Origin: Gammaproteobacteria bacterium
GTDB lineage: Bacteria > Pseudomonadota > Gammaproteobacteria > DSM-16500
Assembly: GCA_013287235.1 (NCBI GenBank)
Contig: JABDEF010000042.1
Location: 1-12,965, forward strand
Direction: 5' to 3'
Length of the DNA stretch: 12,965 nucleotides
Below the pieces are notes generated by a model. The model was not told where the DNA came from. It ran no database searches and saw nothing but the letters and a program-made list of their open reading frames with translations. Shown here piece by piece: positions 7,507-8,468 of this stretch (position 1 is its first letter; every line of letters starts with the position of its first letter). The translations under genes and the position numbers were made by a program.

Positions 7507-8468
7507 ATGGCAAAAAAAAATGATGACGATAACGATTCATTTATCAAAGAATTAGAAAAAAAAAGAAAAATTACTTCCTGATAACCCACATGAAGCCAAA
7601 TCTTCTCTGAAAAAAAAAGGCTTACCAGAAAACCAAAGATGCGCATGATCCCACACAAATATATCTTAATGAAATTGGTTATTCTCCTTTATTAACCGCA
7701 GAAGAAGAAATCGAACTTGCACGCCGCATTCAAAAAGGGGATTCTGAAGCCCGCAAAAAAATGATAGAAAGTAATTTACGATTAGTCGTTAAAATTGCAC
7801 GTCGATATTACAAACGCGGTTTAGAATTTCTTGACTTGATTGAAGAAGGCAATTTAGGTTTATTACGCGCAGTTGAAAAATTTGATCCTGAACGGGGATT
7901 TCGATTTTCTACCTATGCGACTTGGTGGATACGACAAACCATCGAACGTGCAATCATGAATCAAAGCCGAACGATTCGTTTACCCATCCATGTCATTCGG
8001 GAATTAAATATGTATTTATCGATGATTCGCGATCTGATGCGAACATCCAACCGTGAACCCAGCCATCAAGAAATTGCGGATAAATTGCAACGACCGGTTG
8101 AAGATGTGAAGGAAATGCTGCAATTAAATGAATACATGATTTCTTTAGATTCACTCATAGGAGCAGAAACAAGTATAGGAAGACCGCTCGTAGATGTTCT
8201 CGCGGATCAGCATAAATCAGATCCTGCGGAATTAGTCACGGACGAACGCTTCAGCCAGCATCTGGAAGAATGCATCGTCGAGCTGAATGATAAACAGCGT
8301 GAAGTACTTTGCCGCCGCTTTGGGCTACTGGGTTACGACCGAGAAACCTTAGAAGAGGTAGGAAAAGCCATCGGCCTTACTCGTGAACGGGTCCGTCAAA
8401 TCCAAATGAATGGTCTTAAGGCATTGCGTGAAATATTAAAAAAGCATGGGATTTCTAATGAGAGCTGA
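7507..8468 (+). CDS. rpoS: RNA polymerase sigma factor RpoS, reading frame broken twice at A9 tracts near the 5' end
   Basis: The stationary-phase sigma factor, identified by its place after nlpD and by sigma regions close to E. coli RpoS. Region 1.2 is DPTQIYLNEIGYSPLLTAEE (from about 7647) and region 2 includes FRFSTYATWWIRQTIERAIM. Region 4 contains LEEVGKAIGLTRERVRQIQ. The ATG at 7507 has AAGG six bases before it and reads MAKKNDDDNDSFIKEL, but stops at 7579. The next segment (KLLPDNPHEAKSSLKKK) is in the +1 frame and open only over 7556-7645. The rest (AYQKTKDAHDPTQIY onward) is in the third frame, open from 7611. Both changes fall at runs of nine A (7556-7564, 7610-7618). Removing one A from each restores about 319 residues. 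The longest unbroken frame starts at ATG 7761, lacks most of region 1.2 and has no Shine-Dalgarno. It is either a decaying gene, a gene rescued by slippage, or a sequencing artefact. Confidence 0.88.

Follow-up and report, generated by a model that had tools for sequence, protein, structure and literature searches.

Homopolymer tracts are known from phase-variable genes, and bacteria that lose RpoS trade stress survival for growth. In Blochmannia and Buchnera, 12-50% of the transcripts of the genes measured were reported to be corrected (PMC3017870, PMC5009743), and in Citrobacter rodentium slippage in tssM1 is reported to restore a longer product (PMC4256274). Along with these papers and PMC1088944, PMC5574713 serves as a further source. 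A/T runs of at least eight bases are described as varying often in Salmonella (PMC8538453), and loss of RpoS is reported to be selected in E. coli (PMC2700278). A literature search covering titles and the openings of abstracts, with most subscription journals outside its scope, returned no rpoS or other sigma factor gene bypassed by slippage.

Here we describe an rpoS gene whose start codon is not in frame with the conserved regions 1.2-4. The gene lies in a 12,965-base stretch of DNA, which was analysed as a whole and is referred to as the window. On the ranking reached here, recent inactivation via slippery tracts is the likeliest explanation, sequencing or assembly error is second and functional slippage is third. 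The organism is an uncultured relative of the amoeba-associated Aquicella, a genus that NCBI places in Coxiellaceae, Legionellales, and database matches to its MetG include Aquicella siphonis and A. lusitana. An RpoS tree of 48 rows was built from loci L085-L114 except L099, which is truncated on its 5' side (29 of 30), together with four further loci and 14 of the 119 database proteins besides the window. The window falls within a set of nine database proteins (support 99/94) and stands beside P0002 with weak support (88/74), and a fully supported branch holds this set together with 24 rows from the order to which genome G001 belongs.

DNA of the same species was not found in genome contigs, where the best match reached 79% among the best 80 of 571 confirmed loci, nor in the 36 genomes from the order that includes G001, nor in viral contigs (seven loci, 63-65%). 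Megablast likewise returned no such DNA from plasmids, queried with metG, or from phages, queried with positions 6600-9000. The nearest named genome record, within the same best 80 of 571 loci, is a Gammaproteobacteria metagenome-assembled genome with 79% identity in RpoS. Eleven of the 36 genomes of the order gave no rpoS match at E <= 1e-75. Part of rpoS is present at contig ends in G030 and G034, in G018 the sequence breaks off within nlpD, and in G023 it ends some 300 bases beyond surE. Neither an RpoS match at this threshold nor a SurE match was obtained from G006, G008, G009, G010, G026, G032 and G059, reflecting either missing assembly or joint loss. As incomplete assemblies account for these absences as well as loss does, we draw no inference from them on loss of rpoS.

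Reading frames and poly(A) tracts of the window rpoS

The window has the gene order eno-ftsB-surE-nlpD-rpoS, the same as locus L002, and surE and metG flank rpoS. Upstream, nlpD (6631-7374, forward strand) is an unbroken open reading frame, named from gene order and by-eye similarity to L002 and L129. The downstream neighbor metG (8585-10246, forward strand) is also unbroken and encodes 553 residues. The rpoS features given below are all on the forward strand.

A likely ribosome-binding site, AAGG at 7497-7500, was recognized by eye six bases before ATG 7507. The earlier note had divided the beginning of the gene into three frames, and re-reading of the sequence together with a stop scan bore out each of them. 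The first frame (7507-7581) comprises 24 codons of the RpoS N-terminal arm, matching the N-termini of P0052, P0011, P0005 and P0062, and is closed in frame by the TGA at 7579-7581. Stops at 7553 and 7646 confine the middle frame to 7556-7645, the only interval over which it is open. The main frame, which carries regions 1.2, 2, 3 and 4 as recognized by Pfam and conserved columns, follows a stop at 7608 and stays open from 7611 to the TGA at 8466-8468. Because the main frame contains no ATG, GTG or TTG from 7611 until the ATG at 7761, the sole RpoS open reading frame listed is that at 7761-8468 (P0001), which encodes 235 amino acids and lacks region 1.2.

Frame shifts are possible within 7556-7578 and 7611-7645 only. 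The same note had placed a run of nine A in each frame overlap; both overlaps do hold such a run, at 7556-7564 and 7610-7618, while the overlaps themselves extend beyond the runs and the first base of the 7610-7618 run falls outside its range. A homopolymer of slippage-prone length is thus present at both frame changes, and the two A9 tracts are the likely, though not the sole possible, sites of the changes. A single change in the opposite direction at the 7556-7564 tract was ruled out, as that frame runs into the stop at 7608. A further A9 tract at 7512-7520, just past the start codon, is in frame.

Runs of A are expected in themselves at such a locus, since lysine is encoded by AAA at 220 of 252 codons in the 13 listed window genes and runs of at least nine arose in 32, 90 and 66% of synonymous shuffles of the three rpoS pieces (20,000 trials each). 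These shuffles led us to reject the idea that the runs are remarkable as such. The tracts are a by-product of the lysine-rich arm, and it is the frame, not the tracts, that is unusual. The window contains ten A/T runs of at least eight bases, distributed over other named genes (six), rpoS (three) and an open-ended reading frame at the contig end (one). All six in the other named genes, an A10 in ftsB and five A8, sit in unbroken open reading frames, and in rpoS one tract is in frame and two are not. Three of the four A9 or A10 tracts in the window are inside rpoS. By a count made by hand, 3 of the 36 possible pairings of nine tracts would place both off-frame tracts in rpoS by chance, which is weak evidence for anything peculiar to this gene.

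Between nlpD and rpoS lies a palindrome with perfect 28-bp arms (7414-7480, not assigned to a strand). Folded as RNA, positions 7400-7660 gave -73.5 kcal/mol with a z score of -7.6, predicting a very stable hairpin if the region is transcribed; the hairpin ends 26 bases upstream of the start codon, with no U run behind it. Near-identical arms on six contigs of G009 (C3, C5, C7, C10, C21 and C27) identify this palindrome as a dispersed repeat. Other repeats were also observed in the window. Two copies of an 80-base palindromic repeat, 89% alike (2472-2551 and 8473-8552), lie on either side of the segment that begins with the AI-2E-type transporter gene and ends with rpoS, and a palindrome with 39-base arms that are 97% complementary directly follows dcd (1839-1919). 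Toward the contig end, an AAA_14/DUF4143 ATPase is encoded on the reverse strand (11328-12635) and the beginning of an ankyrin-repeat protein on the forward strand (12711-12965), in a stretch of lower GC content (33.7% at 11001-12000).

Intact relatives and the state of the downstream frame

Thirty-nine loci around RpoS matches in related genomes were examined, 37 of which show the 5' end, two of these being cut at the 3' side by a contig end. In every one of the 37 relatives whose 5' end is complete, rpoS is unbroken from the start codon through region 1.2 and the start codon is in frame with the conserved regions, so that the window gene is broken relative to intact relatives. The rpoS genes of the relatives contain 18 A/T runs of at least eight bases, five of them of nine, and every one is in frame. 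The ancestor was therefore intact and the change, if real, arose in the lineage of the window. Clade-wide recoding was rejected on the same count, and the possibility of slippage conserved across the clade, for which a comparison of tract lengths had been suggested, found no support, with none of the 37 split.

The first peptide matches the N-termini of relatives up to the tract at 7556-7564, most closely P0052, P0011 and P0005, and none of 200 shuffles did as well. For the middle peptide, 114 of 200 shuffles matched relatives equally well. The first change is therefore placed by codon usage, at +5.2 bits for the middle frame against -4.2 for the other open frame, and by the open frames themselves. 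Among the 119 other RpoS proteins, P0010, P0116 and P0086 start late at an internal methionine, or four proteins if P0053 is counted. The first residues of these proteins fall at region 1.2, within it or past it, as if the arm were out of frame or cut off. No late start was seen among the 119 other SurE proteins, one of which is a partial sequence not beginning with methionine. The pattern is no more than suggestive of recurrent N-terminal truncation in the RpoS of the clade, as contig ends may also cause it.

The frame downstream of the split appears sound. Positions 7611-8465 match PF00140, PF04542, PF04539 and PF04545 above cut-off, and at 125 columns that are at least 97% conserved the window does not depart once from the 119 relatives, which is likewise the case for 74 of the 120 rows with the window counted. 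A looser cut-off of 90% gave three departures in 158 columns. Upstream of ATG 7761 the corresponding figures are no departure in 12 columns and one in 22. The claim that the conserved downstream regions are without damage was thus upheld, and no damage elsewhere in the window rpoS was found in the Pfam regions or conserved columns. In a neutral simulation, the probability of neither a departure nor a stop was 0.22 at 0.005, 0.04 at 0.01 and 0.005 at 0.02 substitutions per site. Together, the undamaged frame and the simulation indicate that any inactivation was recent and any silent period short. Relative to seven comparison contigs and with three outgroups, the distance ratio was 1.12 for RpoS compared to 1.19 for SurE and 1.24 for MetG; the comparison took all ten contigs, besides the window, that are present in all three lists. 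By this measure RpoS is no faster than its neighbors and gives no sign of relaxed selection; a very recent break would leave neither decay nor acceleration. In the larger tree, the end branch of the window was 0.17 and that of P0002 was 0.087, a difference in the opposite direction that is within the spread (median 0.15).

The closest relative in the databases bears on whether the split is confined to the window. After the window's own proteins, the best SurE and MetG matches are 95 and 93% identical, ungapped, and both lie on JGI contigs of 11,825 bases, which are probably one contig, the two being tied solely by equal length and source label. An intact RpoS from this contig should have ranked second in the RpoS search. 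Among the best 120 matches, the window's own protein is followed by matches at 82% or less, none of them from the 11,825-base contig. The RpoS of the nearest relative is therefore either hidden in the cluster of the 235-residue protein, which has two members, or broken, or off that contig. The second member of the P0001 cluster could be either another truncated copy or simply another prediction.

The short MetG of 553 residues, without PF01588, is found on the 11,825-base contig and also on contigs of 4,043 and 4,556 bases, which carry both RpoS and MetG and hence have them close together. This association favors rpoS beside metG on the 11,825-base contig as well, and from gene order and the short MetG form we infer that rpoS would lie there between surE and metG. 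In general, the MetG of relatives was observed in a short form of about 550 amino acids without PF01588 and a long form of about 670-720, the short one with rpoS nearby on several contigs. Of 18 contigs with both SurE and MetG, seven, including the 11,825-base one, have no RpoS among the best 120 matches; the other six rank lower, and their RpoS may lie below the best 120. In G023, metG is on the opposite side of the block and surE is at the contig end, an order that could hide rpoS on the 11,825-base contig too. A 4,225-base JGI contig with a 90% MetG match (P0243) also has no RpoS among the matches listed, and may end before rpoS. That no intact RpoS was recovered from the nearest relative makes an error confined to the window less likely, not decisively so.

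Origin of the split

We give about even credence to genuine slips having recently turned RpoS off or nearly off. Early gene loss, one of several options in the earlier note, fits best with the undamaged downstream frame and with the six unbroken A8-A10 tracts in other genes. Several parts of this reading are deduced: that the changes are biological rather than errors, that they lie inside the tracts, the order in which they arose, and the scant or absent production of RpoS. The small length changes would most likely have occurred inside the poly(A) tracts, which are prone to slipping and specify lysines of the N-terminal arm. A one-base replication slip in an A8 or A9 run would switch RpoS off, after which a second slip in the neighboring tract would be neutral and likely to arrive ahead of other damage. 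Since that second slip would be neutral and changes in such runs outpace those at single bases, a gene could come to carry two altered tracts and be perfect elsewhere. From its normal start, the sequenced genotype would yield a 24-residue peptide only, and full-length RpoS would be absent or a small leak through transcript slippage. Documented transcript slippage at A9 makes a trace of the full-length protein likely. Each such transcript would need two corrections, each of minus one base or plus two bases; purely as an illustration, 5-10% slippage per tract would give 0.25-1% doubly corrected transcripts.

Sequencing or assembly error, with both A9 tracts miscounted and the true gene intact, is unlikely while still a rival to be reckoned with. 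Both changes fall at the longest homopolymers of the gene, and two errors there need no special cause, as rpoS holds three of the four A9 or A10 tracts of the window. The rest of the gene being undamaged and no relative being split also speak for an error. However, on the same contig the A10 in ftsB, the other A9 in rpoS and five A8 in named genes are all in frame, and an intact RpoS of the nearest relative would rank second, yet there is a gap to 82%, so that both contigs would need an error or some other reason. The two homopolymer errors that the note had listed as an alternative are thus made less likely, as far as an error confined to the window is concerned, by the missing protein of the relative. 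Distinctly unlikely, in our judgment, is a real split with a functional bypass, in which slippage at both tracts would supply full-length RpoS in small or variable amount; a phase-variable tract length would express this idea at the level of the genome. A run of nine A suffices for efficient slippage in bacteria, as reported for Thermus dnaX (PMC1088944, PMC5009743), homopolymer frameshifts in Blochmannia are thought to be bypassed (PMC3017870), and the downstream frame, region 1.2 included, shows neither decay nor acceleration. A bypass would, however, depend on both corrections occurring in one transcript, the A9/T9 cases reviewed in PMC5009743 mostly add bases, and all 37 relatives do without it. 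The note had drawn slippage rescue from AT-rich endosymbionts; at 33.7-44.3% GC per kb, the window lacks the AT-richness of those in insects.

We regard as highly doubtful a form of the bypass in which the split is common to the species and its nearest relative and predates their parting, with RpoS made only via slippage at the two poly(A) tracts and the gene kept under selection. If the split were shared, then with the proteins of the relative 5-7% different, a dead gene would be expected from the simulation to show damage, and its absence would argue for a bypass; a split common by descent would make a dead gene hard to square with the intact frame. Very improbable indeed is that the cell makes a shortened 235-residue sigma factor without region 1.2 from ATG 7761. 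Internal starts have reportedly been found in E. coli rpoS amber alleles, this is the only RpoS reading frame listed, and P0010, one further protein in the database, begins at that methionine. Against it, no good ribosome-binding site was seen by eye upstream of 7761, region 1.2 is still conserved in the columns counted above, although by the simulation this is weak alone, and P0010 comes from a 1,102-base contig whose end may have cut it. If recent inactivation is true, the Aquicella-like bacterium would provide a case from nature in which homopolymer instability, here at slippery lysine tracts, has cost a master regulator or left it leaky. If instead the split proved both shared and bypassed, a sigma factor would be under double slippage control, with the dose of a master regulator set by polymerase infidelity.

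Comparison with known systems

The window rpoS resembles the genes of Blochmannia and Buchnera in that poly(A) tracts likewise disrupt the frame of a gene that is elsewhere undamaged (PMC3017870, PMC5009743). As described in these papers, those cases mostly involve one tract per gene in very AT-rich genomes, in contrast to two tracts at 34-44% GC per kb here. Tract length is in the effective range, as it is for the A9 of Thermus thermophilus dnaX and the A11 of Citrobacter rodentium tssM1 (PMC1088944, PMC4256274); these genes have one tract each and slippage reported from experiment, whereas in the window slippage is only possible. As in phase-variable genes, a tract near the start of a regulator sets the frame, although here two tracts must be right together, which would make a poor switch. 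The null or attenuated rpoS alleles of E. coli, for which selection for loss is known, offer the likeness of RpoS lost in an otherwise normal genome (PMC2700278). The alleles reported there arose by point and other mutations in isolates, while the window carries two homopolymer changes in an uncultured lineage.
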